A stretch of DNA of 41,062 nucleotides from Geobacteraceae bacterium (GTDB lineage Bacteria > Desulfobacterota > Desulfuromonadia > Geobacterales > DSM-12255), in the NCBI GenBank assembly GCA_013377075.1, contig JACABD010000007.1, forward strand, positions 12,731-53,792. Direction: 5' to 3'. Of this stretch, positions 4,688 through 16,660 are shown piece by piece. Each line of letters starts with the position of its first letter. The stretch's first letter is position 1. The translations under genes were made by a program, and so were the position numbers. Under the pieces are notes generated by a model. That model had not been told where the DNA came from. It was given only the letters and a program-made list of their open reading frames with translations, and searched no databases.

Positions 4688-5080
4688 GTATTATCCTCTT
4701 TTGAAAATGTAATAAAAATCACAAAAGCAAGGGGCAGTCAACAGATAATCAGACATGGTCTAAAGCTGTCATAAAACAGTCCTGCTGATATCAACCATAT
4801 TTCGACTTGGCCAATGAATTGCTATGTAAAATGCAGAATAAAGTAATATCAGTCCGACAGGGAGCATGGTTTAAAAAGCTTTAATTGTTTCGCATAATTA
4901 CATGATCCGGCACATACCTCTTAAGGCTCTACTGTATTGAAGCGGCCTGTTTCAGAAGAGGTGACCAAACCAGGAATAAATTGTGATATGAAATAAGTAA
5001 TTAGCTTTACCTAACCGTCAAATCACTTGAAAACACTGCGAAATAAAGCTTTGATATCATTTAAAGAATCGAGAGTATTA
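4688..5080. other. Divergent intergenic region upstream of the HD-GYP gene
   Basis: This stretch of about 390 bp is AT-rich and has no convincing reading frame. It separates the divergent SpoIID-like and HD-GYP genes and must hold promoters for both. The one clear site is a -24/-12 type promoter, listed separately. I looked for a c-di-GMP or cGAMP (GEMM) riboswitch and found no matching core, even though the downstream product is a c-di-GMP phosphodiesterase candidate. Confidence 0.7.
4807..4823 (+). promoter_or_regulatory. Candidate sigma-54 (-24/-12) promoter
   Basis: The sequence TTGGCCAATGAATTGCT has the GG and GC dinucleotides exactly 10 nt apart, as needed by RpoN (consensus TGGCAC-N5-TTGC). 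Here the -24 box is TTGGCC and the -12 box is TTGCT. Transcription would start near 4834, leaving an untranslated leader of about 245 nt before the HD-GYP gene. No enhancer-binding-protein site was identified. This is a single-sequence match, so confidence is moderate. Confidence 0.4.
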
Positions 5081-7159
5081 ATGAGTATGAACTCACTTAA
5101 AACAAAAATACTCGTAACCGTATGCGGGCTGATAATTATCTTTTTATCAATTGCCACGTATGTGAACTTCAGACATCAGAAGCAGCTCGCTCACAAGATA
5201 ATTGACGGTAATGTCCATCTCCTCAACGAAACAATCAAAAGCAGCATTTCTGATGCTATGCGGACCGGAAGATCCGATGAAGTCCGTAACATTTTATCCC
5301 GCCTCAACAATTCAGGGCACATTACCTCAATAAGAATTCTTGATCCAGAAGGGATGGTTCTCAACTCTGCAACACCATCCGAAATAGGCACTTCCATACC
5401 CAAAGAGGACATGTCGGTAATAAAGCGCGGCGACGCAACAGTTCTCGACAATCTGCAGACATTTACTTCAATATCACTTATCAGAAACAGTGTCGCATGT
5501 CATGGCTGCCACAATCCGTCGACTGAAATACTTGGAATTCTTCAGGTCAGCATTTCAATCGAATACATGAAGTCAATTATGGAGTCGATGCGTAATAACG
5601 AGATTTATTCTACCCTTGCCATAATTCTGATGATAATCCTGACACTCTCCGTATTTCTCTTTCTCTACGTGGACAAGCCAATCAAAAGACTTATCGCCTC
5701 CATGCAGAATGTTGAAAATGGAGATTTTGAATCCAGAACCACCATCACCAGCAGCACCGAGATGAACCTCCTTAGTAATCACTTTAACCACATGGTTACC
5801 CAGTTAAACAGTGTCATGGATACGGCAATAACCCATGAGCGGGAGCTTGCCGTTGCCCAGGGCAAACTTTTCCATCACCGCGAAGTCCACACCCTTAACC
5901 AGAAGCTTGAAGCCCAGATTTCGGAAATAGAAACACTGAACATATCTCTGGAAGAGCGGATTGAAGAGATCGAGGAGGCAAACTACAAGATTGCCGATCT
6001 TGCCGGTGAGCTGGAAGACAAGAACTCCAATCTGGAAAAAGTTGTCTCAAGACTCTCCACTCTCTACAAAGTCGGGCTGGCAATCAACTCGAACATGGAT
6101 AGCGAAAACATCTTCAGGCTGATTGTTGACACAACCATAGAGACCCTCCATGCGGATATCGGCTACATAATAATCCATGACAAGGAGAAGGACGCACTCC
6201 GCGTAGACACACTGGTCGGCCATGACAATGTTCCCGAAGGTGATGTCTATCTTCAGAAAAAGGATTCCAGTGTGTCCGGATGGGTACTGGACAATGCCAA
6301 ACCTATCCTGATATCCGACATCAATGACACACCGCAGTTTGACCGTTTCAGTGCCCTTGGCTACGAACGTAAAACCCTGATTTGTGCACCGCTTATCGTC
6401 AAGGACGATGTTATCGGCACAATAACAGTCGTCAATAAAAACGACGGTTCGACCTACAACAATGACGAACTTGGCCTTCTTACTACAATTGCCGCACAGG
6501 CAAGTATCGCCATAAAAAATGCCATGCTCTACGACGAGCAGCAAAAAACCTATCTAAACACGATTCATGCGCTGGTGTCTGCTATTGAAGCCAGCGACAG
6601 CTATACACGCGGCCACTCCGAACGGGTCACAAAGTACAGCCTTTCCATTGCCAAAAAACTGGGTCTATCCCAGGAGCGCCTGAAAATCATGGAGAGAGCC
6701 GCCGTTCTCCACGATATCGGTAAAATCGGTATTAACCTCTCACTGCTCCACAAAATCGGCAAACTCACATCCGAAGATATCCATGACCTGCAGCAGCACC
6801 CGACTATCGGCATAAAGATTCTTGAGCCAATCGAATTCCTGCTTGACGTGAGGCTCTGCATTGCCCAGCACCATGAGCGTTTTGACGGCAAGGGCTATCC
6901 GAACAAGCTCTCCGGTGACCAGTTGCTGCTTGAGGCACGAATACTTGCCATTGCCGACTCATTTGATGCAATGACATCGGACAGACCATACAGAAAAGCA
7001 CTGGCGCTCGACATTGCCGTCAAGGAGCTGACCGACAACTGCGGCACACAGTTCGACCCTGAAATTGTACCCGTCTTCATTGAGCTTCTTGAAAAGGGGA
7101 CATTCCCTTTTTTCGCAGCCGCATCAGAACCGGTTAAGCAGGAATCCATAGCCGCCTGA
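5081..7159 (+). CDS. Membrane HD-GYP phosphodiesterase with periplasmic heme c sensor, HAMP and GAF domains
   Basis: The predicted product has 692 aa. Order: a transmembrane helix (residues about 8-28), a periplasmic sensor region carrying one CxxCH heme c site (CHGCH, residues 140-144), a second transmembrane helix (LAIILMIILTLSVFLFLY), a HAMP linker, a long coiled coil rich in E/I/L, a GAF domain (LSTLYKVGLAINSNMD onward), and a C-terminal HD-GYP domain with HDIGKIG (H544/D545) and HHERFDGKGYP. HD-GYP domains usually hydrolyse cyclic di-GMP (some act on cGAMP). The layout suggests redox or ligand sensing by the heme that controls second-messenger turnover. A TTG start at 5027 would add 18 residues; I chose the ATG at 5081 because it places the membrane helix right at the N-terminus and has GAGAG upstream. 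Periplasmic heme-bearing sensor domains are known in Geobacter chemoreceptors and kinases. Confidence 0.9.
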   Translation: MSMNSLKTKILVTVCGLIIIFLSIATYVNFRHQKQLAHKIIDGNVHLLNETIKSSISDAMRTGRSDEVRNILSRLNNSGHITSIRILDPEGMVLNSATPSEIGTSIPKEDMSVIKRGDATVLDNLQTFTSISLIRNSVACHGCHNPSTEILGILQVSISIEYMKSIMESMRNNEIYSTLAIILMIILTLSVFLFLYVDKPIKRLIASMQNVENGDFESRTTITSSTEMNLLSNHFNHMVTQLNSVMDTAITHERELAVAQGKLFHHREVHTLNQKLEAQISEIETLNISLEERIEEIEEANYKIADLAGELEDKNSNLEKVVSRLSTLYKVGLAINSNMDSENIFRLIVDTTIETLHADIGYIIIHDKEKDALRVDTLVGHDNVPEGDVYLQKKDSSVSGWVLDNAKPILISDINDTPQFDRFSALGYERKTLICAPLIVKDDVIGTITVVNKNDGSTYNNDELGLLTTIAAQASIAIKNAMLYDEQQKTYLNTIHALVSAIEASDSYTRGHSERVTKYSLSIAKKLGLSQERLKIMERAAVLHDIGKIGINLSLLHKIGKLTSEDIHDLQQHPTIGIKILEPIEFLLDVRLCIAQHHERFDGKGYPNKLSGDQLLLEARILAIADSFDAMTSDRPYRKALALDIAVKELTDNCGTQFDPEIVPVFIELLEKGTFPFFAAASEPVKQESIAA

Positions 7160-11419: not shown

Positions 11420-11788
11420 TCAGGGTTTTGCAGCCTCATCAATCAGAAAGTTCATCAGATCAACAACTTTCTTAACCTCTTCCCTCGACATGTTTGACTT
11501 GGGCTTGCGCAGCATCTTTATGCCGTATGCCTTTGTGGCCTGCTTGTCAAAAGGCTGACCAGTAACAGGCGCAATGCCGGTCTGTATGGCAATAACAGTC
11601 CTCTCCTGAGTATGACACTGAATACATTTGACCTTCATTATCTCGAATGCCTGTTTTAGATCCGCCGGAATCTGAGTCGGGTCAAAAGTCATCTTGTCCC
11701 CCTTGCCGACCGCCCTGATCTTTGCATGTACAGGGGTTGAAACCACTGCCAACAGAACTACAAAAATCGCCATCTTTAAAACACTCAT
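11420..11788 (-). CDS. Small exported monoheme c-type cytochrome
   Basis: The 122-aa product has a signal peptide (AIFVVLLAVVSTPVHA, cut near residue 22) and one CxxCH heme c site, CIQCH at residues 55-59. Methionines in the region KMLRKPKSNM are candidates for the distal heme ligand. It would be a periplasmic electron carrier after cleavage. It lies 33 bp downstream of the fused cytochrome-porin gene on the same strand, so the two are probably one operon and may exchange electrons. The exact cytochrome subfamily was not recognised. Confidence 0.85.
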   Translation of the reverse strand: MSVLKMAIFVVLLAVVSTPVHAKIRAVGKGDKMTFDPTQIPADLKQAFEIMKVKCIQCHTQERTVIAIQTGIAPVTGQPFDKQATKAYGIKMLRKPKSNMSREEVKKVVDLMNFLIDEAAKP

Positions 11789-11821
11789 ACTGATCTCCTT
11801 TCCTTGTGACGCATACCTAAT

Positions 11822-13195
11822 TTAAAAAGCGACTCTGACTCCCAGAAGCGCGATATTACTGGTTGTGGTTATTGCAGATATTTTGTCGGACACATGCTGA
11901 TATTCAATTGTCAGTTTCACATTCTGAATCGGAGCATAGGCAACAGCAGGAATATACCGGTGCGTCCTTGTGCCATCATTTACAGTGAGGTACTCATACC
12001 TTGCAAAGGCAAGCAGATCAGGGGTGAACATGTACTCTGCCTGGGCAAGCAATACATCTGTAGTATTACTTTGATGAGACGAGTAATCCGGATTTTTATC
12101 ATTCTCTCTTGCAAATGCAAGTTTTATTCTGGCACTTTTTACAATCAGGTCGGCATCTGCTCCAGCCCTGTAAAAGTTATTTCTCTGCTGTGAATAGAGA
12201 TCGAAAGAATTACGCCCGGTGTAGCCATAGCAGCCTAGCACCAGGTACATGTAGTCAAATATGCTCTCTTTATCAAGATCAATGTCCGGCTCATTCGCCT
12301 TGAAATCCGAGCCTCCTATTTTCAAGGAGACATGACCATATCCTTCATTTGCATCCTGCCCTTTTCTGTCCACAAGTCCGGTTGCCAGATAAAGCCGGTT
12401 GAAAAGGATGGCGTTGGCTTCAACCGCATCTGCCGGGGCATCGGCACTGAAAGTGGACTTGCCTACCCTGAAGCTTGTGGTTGCAAAATCGGAAATTCCG
12501 GTTTTATTGTTCTTCTTCCATAACGAAAGGGTCGGTCGAAAACGTCCTGCCTTTAAATTAAGTGGCGACCCCAGTGCGTTTCTCCAGACAAGATAAAACT
12601 CCTCAAGATCATTTGCATAAGGGGAACCGAGGTTGAGAGGAGTATTGCTTTGAGCCGGATCGAAAATCCCTTCGGAATAGAGGTTATATTTGAGGAAAAA
12701 TCCCAGTTTATCGCGGATTACTCCGCCAGCTAGCAGAGAGATTGCCCTGGTGGAGAGGTCAACCTTGTCATATTTTGCATCATCATTGTATGAGGCGTTA
12801 AGAGTTGCTGCAAGAGATATGGGAAGTGTCTGGGGAAGCCCTGCAAGCCAGAGAGGCTCACTCTTTTTACTTGAAGCAGCTGTCGGTTCATCGACTTTCT
12901 GTGGAAGTCCGGCAGCAGCAACCTCCTTGAGCTGGCGGAGAATATCCGGATCCCCCTCACCCTTTACCTGAGGAGCATTGGCAAGCGGTTCCCCTTTTTT
13001 CTGTTTGTTCCAGACAAAGCCATTTTTTAAAAACGCATCGCCATATTCATTAAGTTCAGGGTAAATTGTGTGGCAGGTTGCACACTCGGTGTTATGCTCC
13101 CTGCTGAAGGCAGGAATTGCATATGCCTGTGTGAAAAATCCCGACAGTATCAGCAGTCCTGAAATCAGGAAAATGTAGCTTAAACCAGCTCGCAT
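11822..13195 (-). CDS. Cyc2-like fused monoheme cytochrome / outer-membrane beta-barrel
   Basis: This 457-aa protein begins with a signal peptide (to AYA at about 24-26), then a short heme domain with one CxxCH (CATCH, residues 38-42) in the setting AIPAFSREHNTECATCH and YPELNEYGDAFLKNG. The rest, from about residue 115 on, alternates polar and hydrophobic residues like an outer-membrane barrel and ends in VRVAF, a C-terminal phenylalanine typical of porins. The layout and heme-region motif resemble Cyc2, the fused cytochrome-porin that takes electrons from Fe(II) in iron oxidisers; Cyc2 proteins are of similar length. A charged, low-complexity linker (about residues 45-110) joins the halves. 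It is the first gene of a two-gene operon with a monoheme cytochrome. Direction of electron flow here is unknown. Confidence 0.75.
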   Translation of the reverse strand: MRAGLSYIFLISGLLILSGFFTQAYAIPAFSREHNTECATCHTIYPELNEYGDAFLKNGFVWNKQKKGEPLANAPQVKGEGDPDILRQLKEVAAAGLPQKVDEPTAASSKKSEPLWLAGLPQTLPISLAATLNASYNDDAKYDKVDLSTRAISLLAGGVIRDKLGFFLKYNLYSEGIFDPAQSNTPLNLGSPYANDLEEFYLVWRNALGSPLNLKAGRFRPTLSLWKKNNKTGISDFATTSFRVGKSTFSADAPADAVEANAILFNRLYLATGLVDRKGQDANEGYGHVSLKIGGSDFKANEPDIDLDKESIFDYMYLVLGCYGYTGRNSFDLYSQQRNNFYRAGADADLIVKSARIKLAFARENDKNPDYSSHQSNTTDVLLAQAEYMFTPDLLAFARYEYLTVNDGTRTHRYIPAVAYAPIQNVKLTIEYQHVSDKISAITTTSNIALLGVRVAF

Positions 13196-13411: not shown

Positions 13412-14503
13412 ATGTGCAAAAAGCTTTTCATCGCCGCCACAGGACAGAACTGCGGCAAAACCACCATGAGTGTATCATTAATGCATCTCGCAAAAAAGAA
13501 ATATGGCAGAGTAGGCTTCATAAAACCGATCGGCCCCAAAATTGAGATGTTCGGCGACAGAATGGTTGATATGGACGCAGCCCTGATGGCAAAAGCTTAC
13601 GGACTTGAGAAGGATATTCACCTCATGTCTCCGGTTGCCCTGCATAAAAATTTCACAAAAGAGTTTCTGGCCGGACAAATCAAACGTGAAGAGCTTGAAG
13701 AAAGAGTGGTTTCGTCAGTCAGGGAGCTTGAAAAAAGGTACGATTTCCTTATAATCGAAGGCGCCGGTCACGCAGGAGTTGGTTCAATAATCGGTCTCAA
13801 CAATGCCCGTGTTGCCCATCTGCTTGATGCACCGGTTATTGTTGTGGCAGGAAGCGGCATTGGCAGTGTTGTTGACTCAATTCGCCTCAATATGGCCCTT
13901 TTTGAAAAGGAGAAGGCTGATGTACGCCTTGCCGTAATCAATAAAGTCAGATATGACAAGCGCAAACATATAATTGATCTCGTCAGACAGGCGTTTGCCG
14001 GTGAGCCGCTCAACATAACCGGTGGTTTCAATTATTCACCCATACTTGCCAACCCGACGCTCGGCCACATTTCAAGGCTGCTCAATCTTCCGCTACGCGC
14101 CAACGCTAAAGAGCGTAGCAGAATCATTCACAATATTCAGCTTGGAGCAGCATCTTCCCAAAAGGTTGTTGACAACCTGCTGGATGACACACTGCTTGTA
14201 GTCACAGGTTCAAGGGATGAACTTCTGGTAACGATTTCATCGCTGTATCACATTCCCGAATATCTGGAAAAAATCGCCGGTCTGATTATCACCGGCCATG
14301 CGCCGGTTTCGGAAATAAGTCAGAGAATAGTCGAAGATAGTGGCATCCCCTATATCCGCATTGATGAAACAACAGCAGATGTCTATACCGCGATTAGCGA
14401 AGACGTTGCAAAGATCACCGTAGAAGATGTCGAAAAACTAAACTGGATAAAGGATCATGCTGAGAAAGAGATCGACTTTGAGGCCATAGACGCCCTGCTT
14501 TAA
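13412..14503 (+). CDS. BioD-like P-loop / DRTGG domain protein (phosphotransacetylase N-terminal-like)
   Basis: The 363-aa protein joins an AAA_26/BioD-like nucleotide-binding domain (residues about 1-215; P-loop ATGQNCGKTT, then FIKPIGP and DFLIIEGAGHAGVGS) with a DRTGG domain (about 220-325). The same pair forms the N-terminal regulatory part of long phosphotransacetylases, but the catalytic acetyltransferase domain is absent. The family's function is not firmly known; a regulatory or sensing role has been suggested from domain company. The start ATG at 13412 has AGAGAGG upstream. It stands 60 bp ahead of the 13-heme cytochrome gene, and joint transcription is possible. Confidence 0.8.
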   Translation: MCKKLFIAATGQNCGKTTMSVSLMHLAKKKYGRVGFIKPIGPKIEMFGDRMVDMDAALMAKAYGLEKDIHLMSPVALHKNFTKEFLAGQIKREELEERVVSSVRELEKRYDFLIIEGAGHAGVGSIIGLNNARVAHLLDAPVIVVAGSGIGSVVDSIRLNMALFEKEKADVRLAVINKVRYDKRKHIIDLVRQAFAGEPLNITGGFNYSPILANPTLGHISRLLNLPLRANAKERSRIIHNIQLGAASSQKVVDNLLDDTLLVVTGSRDELLVTISSLYHIPEYLEKIAGLIITGHAPVSEISQRIVEDSGIPYIRIDETTADVYTAISEDVAKITVEDVEKLNWIKDHAEKEIDFEAIDALL

Positions 14504-14563: not shown

Positions 14564-16660
14564 ATGAACCTCGGCAAACTGCGGATTCAGATAATCACTT
14601 TACTTTCCGGAGCGATCCTTACCATGTCCGGCTGCGGCGGAAGCTCAGGGGGAGTTGTTCCTGTTATCTCGCCAACAGCATCCAACGAGTGCATTGCCTG
14701 TCACGCAACTAACAGCAAAAGCGTCTCCAGCACCTCGGGAGTAAAAATCACCGAACAGTGGCTGCTGTCGGCTCACAACACCGCCCATGGGGCAGGCTGT
14801 ATGGACTGCCACACAAGCGCCCACTTCCATGACAACGTCACAACCTGCCGCAGCTGCCATGCGACCTCCCATTCAAATAACGGCACAAGCTGCAATCTCT
14901 GCCATGGCGGAGGATCCAAAGAGGTCGCAAACTGTAGCAGCTGCCATCTTAATGTTCACAGCATTGCCAACATGAACAAGGATAGCTGCACCCGATGCCA
15001 CGGAGGCGACATCCCTGTTGATGTGGCAATGAAAAATCCTGATTTTGCAGGAAAATGTTTCGGCTGTCACCAGAACGGCAGTAACTTCAGACGTTATACG
15101 TCAGTTGCATTAAAACATTTCAACAACTTTACCGGATCCAACTATCATCAGGCAATGTATGTCACAGCAAGCTACCAGAACTCATGCACATCCTGCCACG
15201 AACCCCATAATCCGCTTCTCGGCCTAGGGAAAGACGAGCGCAAGGCATGGGCAAAGTCAGCCCACGGCGATGTTAAAGGGGTCGCTTGGACGACTTACGA
15301 TTTCAAGAATCCGGTTCACGGGTCATACTATTATTGCCAGCGCTGCCACACAGCAACAGGCTATATCAAGTTTACCCAAACCAATGACACCCGACCGACA
15401 ACTACCTGGGCAACTTCAGGTGACCTTGGCAGAGAGGTGCTGACCTGCAAGGCATGCCACGCAAGCAGCAACTTTGCAAGCAGCGTCCGCACTGTTAAAT
15501 CCTTCACAACGCCGTATAAAGCCAATGGCGGCTCAGACCTGATTCCGGACCTTGGCGAGTCAAATCTCTGCATTCCTTGCCATGCCGGCCTCTCATCACA
15601 GGCTGACATTTTAGGCATCAGCAACAGTGCTATCAGCAATACAGGTTTCAAGAACCCACATTACATGGCTGCAGCAGGCATCATGTACATGAAGGCAGGC
15701 TTTACCAGCTTCACTTCTGCAACGGCCCTGACAACAGGAACCAACATCAATGTCATCCCCAATATGCTGAACACATATGGACTACAGTACTCTTTGCCAC
15801 TTACTGGCAATGTCCTTGCTACAACTGGTTCAGATAAAAGCCAGATAGGTTATCCGCTGAACGGATCCGTAGACTCCATGTACGGAGGGATCCCCGGCGG
15901 AGTAACCAGCGCTCACCGTGCCATTGGAACAGCTACTGCCCGCGGACGGGAGACGTGGATGAGAAATCCGGCTGTTTATGGCCTCTGGGAGACAAAAGGT
16001 CCATGCGTGACATGTCACGTAAAGGCAGACATAACCCACATGCCTGCAGTCACAACCACTACTGCTGCTCCGTTTCTCCCGGCAGGAACGGCTATTCCGG
16101 TAAAACGCAGCGACTCACACAGCTACCTTGCCACCACCAATGACACCGGCAAGCAACTCTGCATGCCCTGCCACAACGATGCCGGAGACTTTAGCGCCAA
16201 ATTAAACACCGGAGATTTTGCTGACGCAATAGAGGAGAAGCTTCAGGAAGCAAAACCATATTTCCTCGGTGGTCTGGCAATAATCACCAAGCTGCTGGAC
16301 ACCAGATTCAGCATCACCTTTAACAATGGCACCTATCCATATTTCTTTGAAAAAACTGGTGGGGCAGCTGTGACCGACTGGACACGGGGAGGCACACTAC
16401 CAGCTGTCCAGGCAAGGAGACTCATGGGGGCCTGCTACAACCTGAAACTCCTCAGCGCTGACAAAGGAGCATTTGTCCATGGCCGCAGCTATGTGCAACG
16501 GCTGATTTTTGACTCTATCGACTTCCTTGATAACGGCAGGATGGATGGCCCGACAAACCTGCAGACAGCCAGCACTATTGTACTTCTTGGTGATCCGCTA
16601 CTCTTCCCCAATACAACTGCCGACCATTGGCTCTACAAAGCTAACGGAGTCAGAAAGTAG
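14564..16660 (+). CDS. Thirteen-heme c-type cytochrome lipoprotein
   Basis: The 698-aa product has a lipoprotein-type signal sequence ending SGCGG (Cys24) and 13 CxxCH heme c motifs that I counted directly, from CIACH at residues 43-47 to CMPCH near residue 531. Seven of them are packed into the first 175 residues (CIACH, CMDCH, CRSCH, CNLCH, CSSCH, CTRCH, CFGCH). The last 160 residues are heme-free. Multiheme lipoproteins of this sort sit on the outer membrane or periplasmic face in Geobacter and conduct electrons towards extracellular acceptors. A strong GGAGG lies before the ATG, and a terminator follows 10 bp after the stop. No porin-cytochrome partner genes (OmbB/OmaB type) are adjacent, so its conduit is not evident. 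Specific orthologue not assigned. Confidence 0.9.
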   Translation: MNLGKLRIQIITLLSGAILTMSGCGGSSGGVVPVISPTASNECIACHATNSKSVSSTSGVKITEQWLLSAHNTAHGAGCMDCHTSAHFHDNVTTCRSCHATSHSNNGTSCNLCHGGGSKEVANCSSCHLNVHSIANMNKDSCTRCHGGDIPVDVAMKNPDFAGKCFGCHQNGSNFRRYTSVALKHFNNFTGSNYHQAMYVTASYQNSCTSCHEPHNPLLGLGKDERKAWAKSAHGDVKGVAWTTYDFKNPVHGSYYYCQRCHTATGYIKFTQTNDTRPTTTWATSGDLGREVLTCKACHASSNFASSVRTVKSFTTPYKANGGSDLIPDLGESNLCIPCHAGLSSQADILGISNSAISNTGFKNPHYMAAAGIMYMKAGFTSFTSATALTTGTNINVIPNMLNTYGLQYSLPLTGNVLATTGSDKSQIGYPLNGSVDSMYGGIPGGVTSAHRAIGTATARGRETWMRNPAVYGLWETKGPCVTCHVKADITHMPAVTTTTAAPFLPAGTAIPVKRSDSHSYLATTNDTGKQLCMPCHNDAGDFSAKLNTGDFADAIEEKLQEAKPYFLGGLAIITKLLDTRFSITFNNGTYPYFFEKTGGAAVTDWTRGGTLPAVQARRLMGACYNLKLLSADKGAFVHGRSYVQRLIFDSIDFLDNGRMDGPTNLQTASTIVLLGDPLLFPNTTADHWLYKANGVRK

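Follow-up and report, generated by a model that had tools for sequence, protein, structure and literature searches.

A window of 41,062 nucleotides from a Geobacteraceae bacterium (genome of 3.7 Mb in 126 contigs, 95% complete) encodes a polypeptide in which a cytochrome domain is fused to an outer membrane barrel. The gene, P1, lies beside that of a small monoheme cytochrome, P2, and raises the question of whether it encodes a Cyc2 protein, as its architecture had suggested, or a component of a different route for electrons across the outer membrane. The closest named relatives found were MAGs labelled 'Geobacter sp.' and 'Deltaproteobacteria bacterium'. The features concerned, including a third gene, P3, are as follows.

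11822..13195 (-): P1, fused monoheme cytochrome-outer membrane barrel, 457 aa (open reading frame, AlphaFold2 (AF2) model, structure matches)
13070..13084 (-): heme c motif CATCH, P1 residues 38-42 (C38, C41 and H42 invariant in 60/60 aligned P1 family members)
12836..13012 (-): variable linker of P1, about residues 62-120, with a predicted helix at 83-94 (length comparison, AF2 models)
11828..12820 (-): predicted 16-strand beta barrel of P1, residues 126-456 (DSSP on both AF2 models)
12332..12334 (-): codon of His288 in P1, strand 8, inward side, candidate distal heme ligand
11420..11788 (-): P2, secreted monoheme c-type cytochrome, 122 aa, predicted periplasmic (open reading frame, one CXXCH)
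11612..11626 (-): heme motif CIQCH of P2 (sequence)
14564..16660 (+): P3, multiheme cytochrome lipoprotein, 698 aa, 13 CXXCH (open reading frame, neighbour conservation)
14633..14635 (+): putative lipidation cysteine of P3, MSGC, residue 24 (CG invariant in alignment A3; lipobox pattern)
13412..14503 (+): phosphotransacetylase-like gene (AAA_26/DRTGG, Pfam), probably a bystander

The initial annotation placed a CxxCH domain N-terminal of an outer membrane barrel in one polypeptide, and this was confirmed. In P1 a signal-like segment is followed by AIPAFSREHNTECATCHTIYPELNEYG, the linker, a beta-rich part and a C-terminal phenylalanine (...VRVAF); the single CXXCH reads AIPAFSREHNTECATCH. Structure prediction with AF2, using 65 homologues, returned 16 strands within residues 126-456 (mean pLDDT 77.7, pTM 0.75), and an earlier model from 27 sequences had identical strands at a pLDDT of 65. 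The top structure match in the PDB was OprP (Z 27.3, 3.2 Å over 310 residues), followed by OprO (Z 27.1). Sequence searches found no solved relatives of P1 in the PDB and no family for the window P1 in Pfam and NCBIfam. Pfam Porin_O_P was matched by 9 of the 65 aligned P1 proteins, and some aligned members gave weak matches to LbtU, a siderophore porin. The heme domain was modelled at low confidence (pLDDT <50 for residues 21-41); it may plug, or reach into, the protein's own barrel. The linker had been singled out as long, charged and unusual. It is present but ordinary, ranging from 25 to 99 aa among members from the order (median 59.5, window 59) and from 21 to 31 aa in more distant relatives, and in the window it is charge-balanced, with 9 K/R against 8 D/E. 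At two loci (L138 6252-7040 and L139 7274-8020), proteins of approximately 250-263 aa have a similar heme domain at the N-terminus, continue into a region rich in Pro, Glu and Lys and lack anything of barrel length, which makes the heme domain look modular.

Only two histidines were invariant in the 60 P1 family members, H42 of the CXXCH and H288. The latter lies on predicted strand 8, within E-G-Y-G-H-V-S-L-K-I-G. Here E/D284, Y286, H288, S290 and K/R292 alternate with residues that are largely apolar, and H288 should therefore face the pore. Five further heme-barrel proteins lack a histidine at the corresponding place in the alignment. Judged from the alignment, H288 is a candidate ligand: roles as distal heme ligand, as part of a metal site or in maintaining structure would all fit.

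A profile (A1) was built from 27 P1 relatives and run over 141 genomes of the order. Matches were obtained in 80 genomes, and in 73 after the removal of seven that were weak, N-terminal-only or at contig ends. P1 is therefore no rarity of this genome, and its presence in an apparent metal reducer, initially regarded as an oddity, is shared by about half of the order. The invariant C38, C41 and H42, this distribution and the predicted 16-strand barrel together indicate that the P1/P2 observation is not a chance one. A sample of 395 genomes from the phylum added a few closer relatives from other classes, together with many heme-barrels that are more distantly related. P1 was found in 72 of the 113 order genomes with strong PpcA homologues, against 1 of the 28 with weak homologues or none (Fisher p about 2e-9, uncorrected for kinship). 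As the best match of the PpcA query was 86%, the order set apparently does not include G. sulfurreducens.

Gene neighbourhoods were read in 60 regions around P1, P2 or distant relatives and subsequently in 20 more. P1 and P2 of the window are adjacent on the minus strand, 33 bp apart. The noted pairing of P1 with a small soluble monoheme cytochrome recurred throughout: P2 came immediately after P1 in each of the 49 order-level loci assessable for it, and a P3 homologue adjoined P1 in 49/49 loci assessable for P3, these loci coming from kindred genomes and hence not being independent. Gaps in the counts were due to contig ends (L085 for P3, L140 for P2). The P1-P2 pair is thus the core of a conserved three-gene locus, of which the interval first annotated omits the third component, P3 (14564-16660, +). 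In one layout P3, P1 and P2 are collinear with gaps mostly <85 bp; in the other, P3 is transcribed divergently from P1-P2 and the gaps span roughly 130-540 bp. The window and L084 have a P3-P1 gap of 1.37 kb with the phosphotransacetylase-like gene inside. This gene was rejected as a component because it lies between P1 and P3 at these two loci only, and its position is a local rearrangement in the window's lineage. In L082 and L083 it is found outside an in-line P3-P1-P2.

Twelve loci of the P2-only kind (L147-L158) had neither P1 nor P3. Several of them share outside neighbours with complete loci, which would fit joint loss of P1 and P3 from the P2-only loci. Among relatives from outside the order, three (L127-L129) have P1 adjoining P3 and P2 beyond P3, and five (L122-L126) have P1 and P2 without P3. 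In genome G516 (L165 6906-8398) the P1 frame is split over two frames by a frameshift or assembly error, with P2 and P3 intact. PccH of G. sulfurreducens was considered as a relative of P2 and rejected, a PDB sequence search with an E limit of 1 having given no match.

In an alignment of 23 P3 proteins (A3), approximately ten CXXCH motifs and the Cys-Gly at the lipobox were invariant. The lipobox pattern was present in 51/53 P3 matches, the exceptions being one contig-end fragment and one LLNGC, and lipidation of P3 is therefore likely. By analogy with known conduits, P3 is probably located on the outer face of the outer membrane. A PDB sequence search with P3 gave only weak, partial multiheme matches. 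Across 15 genomes there were 0-13 matches to P3-like genes per genome, and with so few the chance of one adjoining P1 was estimated to be of the order of 1% per genome.

We consider it likely that P1, P2 and P3 form an undescribed three-component trans-outer-membrane electron conduit of Desulfuromonadia-type bacteria. This reading is built on gene content, the constant neighbourhood, the absence of P1 and P3 from the same loci, the signal and lipobox motifs, the predicted barrel and conserved residues. It is favoured because P2 and P3 flank P1 in every assessable order-level locus and both layouts keep the identical three genes, because the P2-only loci have neither P1 nor P3, and because adjacency of P3 by chance would be rare; the frequency of the P3 lipobox, the OprP/OprO-like barrel, the conservation of His288 in 60/60 sequences and the tracking of PpcA homologues by P1 argue in the same direction. 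For the working of the conduit we infer heme insertion, a surface-side P3, a physical complex and electron flow. The secreted monoheme P2 would exchange electrons with the P1 heme domain in the periplasm. That domain would plug, or reach into, its own 16-strand porin barrel, where its heme might be ligated by the inward-facing His288. Lipid-anchored P3, with about ten conserved hemes (13 here), would dock on the outer mouth of the barrel and connect it to extracellular acceptors or donors. In organisms of this type the main use is more likely to be outward flow, with Fe(III), electrodes or partner cells receiving the electrons. Several points stand against such a conduit. As modelled, a 16-strand barrel is too narrow for the multiheme chain of Mtr-type conduits, and the distance from the P1 heme to the P3 hemes may therefore be too great for electrons to tunnel quickly. 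The heme domain model is of low confidence, P3 is missing from L122-L126, and P3 and P1 have an unrelated gene between them in the window and in L084.

Were P1 a true Cyc2, it would be a stand-alone outer membrane oxidase of dissolved Fe(II), passing electrons inward to P2, with P3 a mere neighbour. Cyc2 has been defined by AXPXFAR[Q/K][T/Y] before the CXXCH and PXL after it (Keffer et al., PMC8406198), and is reported to be structurally homologous to the porins OprP and OprO (PMC8406198). P1 resembles Cyc2, Cyc2-PV1 and Cyt572 (PMC8406198, PMC5566968) in its signal-like N-terminus, its CXXCH domain N-terminal of a 16-strand barrel for which OprP and OprO rank first (Z ~27), and its length (457 aa, the criterion being at least 365 aa). 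Its heme motif is also close to that of Cyc2, with an A-x-P-x-F-x-R element at equal spacing upstream of the CXXCH and a P-x-L downstream. However, the window P1 reads AIPAFSREH and so departs from the strict motif, which was found in 2/58 scored P1 family members. In the PEL after the P1 heme motif, three residues separate the CXXCH from the P, against four in full-motif homologues, although the published wording, '4 aa downstream of CXXCH', allows either count (PMC8406198).

The phylum search yielded six sequences with FARQ(T/V/M)G..C..CHFQHxPxLN. From this motif we take them to be Cyc2 cluster-1-like, no named reference being among them. In a tree they and the P1 family fell into separate clades (SH-aLRT 99 and 98), the deep order being unsure because of long branches. 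The phylogeny proposed against Cyc2 clusters, when run with these six sequences, therefore left P1 outside the cluster-1-like clade. By BLAST, P1 matched the cluster-1-like proteins over the heme domain only (52 bits) and FARKY-type heme-barrels over the whole length (101 bits). The description 'Cyc2-like' accordingly holds for the fused architecture and the OprP/OprO-like barrel but does not extend to Cyc2 in the strict sense; at the level of sequence, and with cluster-1-like sequences as the sole comparison, P1 is Cyc2-like without being established as a Cyc2. FeGenie matches to cluster-3 cyc2 have been reported in Desulfobacterales (PMC8446621). Unlike Cyc2, the P1 family has the invariant barrel His288 and, within the order, is always accompanied by the multiheme lipoprotein and the monoheme cytochrome. 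As this constant neighbourhood and the joint absence of P1 and P3 also speak against it, a Cyc2 role for P1 is unlikely. Redox sensing or taxis, in which P1 and P2 would pass a redox signal from outside the cell to a chemoreceptor instead of carrying respiratory current, draws on a methyl-accepting chemotaxis receptor gene that adjoins P2 in approximately 30 loci, mostly directly downstream and including P2-only loci (for example L089 5375-7555, L094 5665-7872 and L159 8474-10675). A sensing role is thus conceivable for some members of the group. No chemotaxis gene linked to P2 was found in the window, its genus or the f4 genomes, however, and the constant P3-P1 pairing would be left unexplained, making sensing quite improbable as the general function. 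The Porin_O_P and weak LbtU matches would suit a solute or ion porin in which the P1 heme gates or reduces a substrate entering the pore (metal, metalloid or siderophore). A parallel is ExtI, an OprP-annotated porin of G. sulfurreducens that affects selenite and tellurite reduction and reportedly lacks a heme motif (PMC5877670). A porin of this kind would not account for the constant multiheme lipoprotein and monoheme neighbours, and we regard it as very improbable.

The three-component conduit that we favour has features of several known systems. Like the Mtr/Omb type (MtrCAB, OmbB-OmaB-OmcB, PccF/G), its three genes encode a periplasmic cytochrome, an outer membrane barrel and a multiheme lipoprotein, and P3, with its lipobox and 13 CXXCH, is encoded beside the barrel in 49/49 assessable loci. 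The earlier proposal of a conduit distinct from porin-multiheme complexes is therefore not supported, a multiheme lipoprotein being the constant genomic neighbour of P1. Differences are nonetheless evident: the P1 barrel is predicted to have 16 strands and carries its own heme, whereas Mtr/Omb barrels have 26 or more strands (MtrB 26) and are heme-free, and P2 has one CXXCH in place of the 8-10 hemes that thread the barrel. The extHIJKL cluster of G. sulfurreducens (PMC5877670, PMC6148476) similarly has an OprP-annotated barrel, ExtI, in a Geobacteraceae redox locus; P1 differs in its invariant CXXCH, and the ExtI neighbours, a rhodanese lipoprotein and a pentaheme cytochrome, were not found among recurring P1 neighbours. 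The FARKY-type heme-barrels of other Desulfobacterota (L064-L069) share with P1 the heme domain at the N-terminus and a C-terminal part of barrel length, and show the highest full-length similarity outside the P1 family. Unlike P1, they have no histidine at the His288 position, and P2 and P3 were not detected nearby in three neighbourhoods (L130-L132). Known conduits comprise MtrCAB/OmbB-OmaB-OmcB, ExtABCD, ExtEFG, ExtHIJKL, PccF-H, OetABI and OmcKL (PMC6148476, PMC10989804, PMC10553843); in the accessible parts of these sources none is described with a fused cytochrome-barrel and a monoheme partner. A literature search for a Geobacter fused cytochrome-porin conduit, with subscription journals and preprints outside its scope, likewise found no description.

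It is possible, though doubtful, that a single heme inside a 16-strand porin, ligated by His288, bridges the monoheme and surface multiheme cytochromes, which would place this conduit among the smallest of its kind. Such a bridge could, tentatively, be viewed as combining the Cyc2 architecture with the porin-multiheme one in a hybrid. If the conduit is real, it adds a type to well-studied electricity-producing, metal-reducing bacteria, present in approximately half of the order genomes searched. The locus connects Cyc2 fusions with porin-multiheme complexes, two architectures that had been kept apart, and warns that a Cyc2-like match need not imply Fe(II) oxidation. With a conserved His288 and a three-gene unit, whether one heme can help electrons to cross the outer membrane becomes directly testable.

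Two minor observations were made by eye. P2 homologues outside the order (L124, L127, L128 and L129) have the wider-spaced CX4CH or CX6CH instead of CXXCH. Elsewhere in the window, at 5027-7159, an HD-GYP/GAF-like signalling protein has an isolated CHGCH in its N-terminal sensor region and is possibly a heme c sensor.
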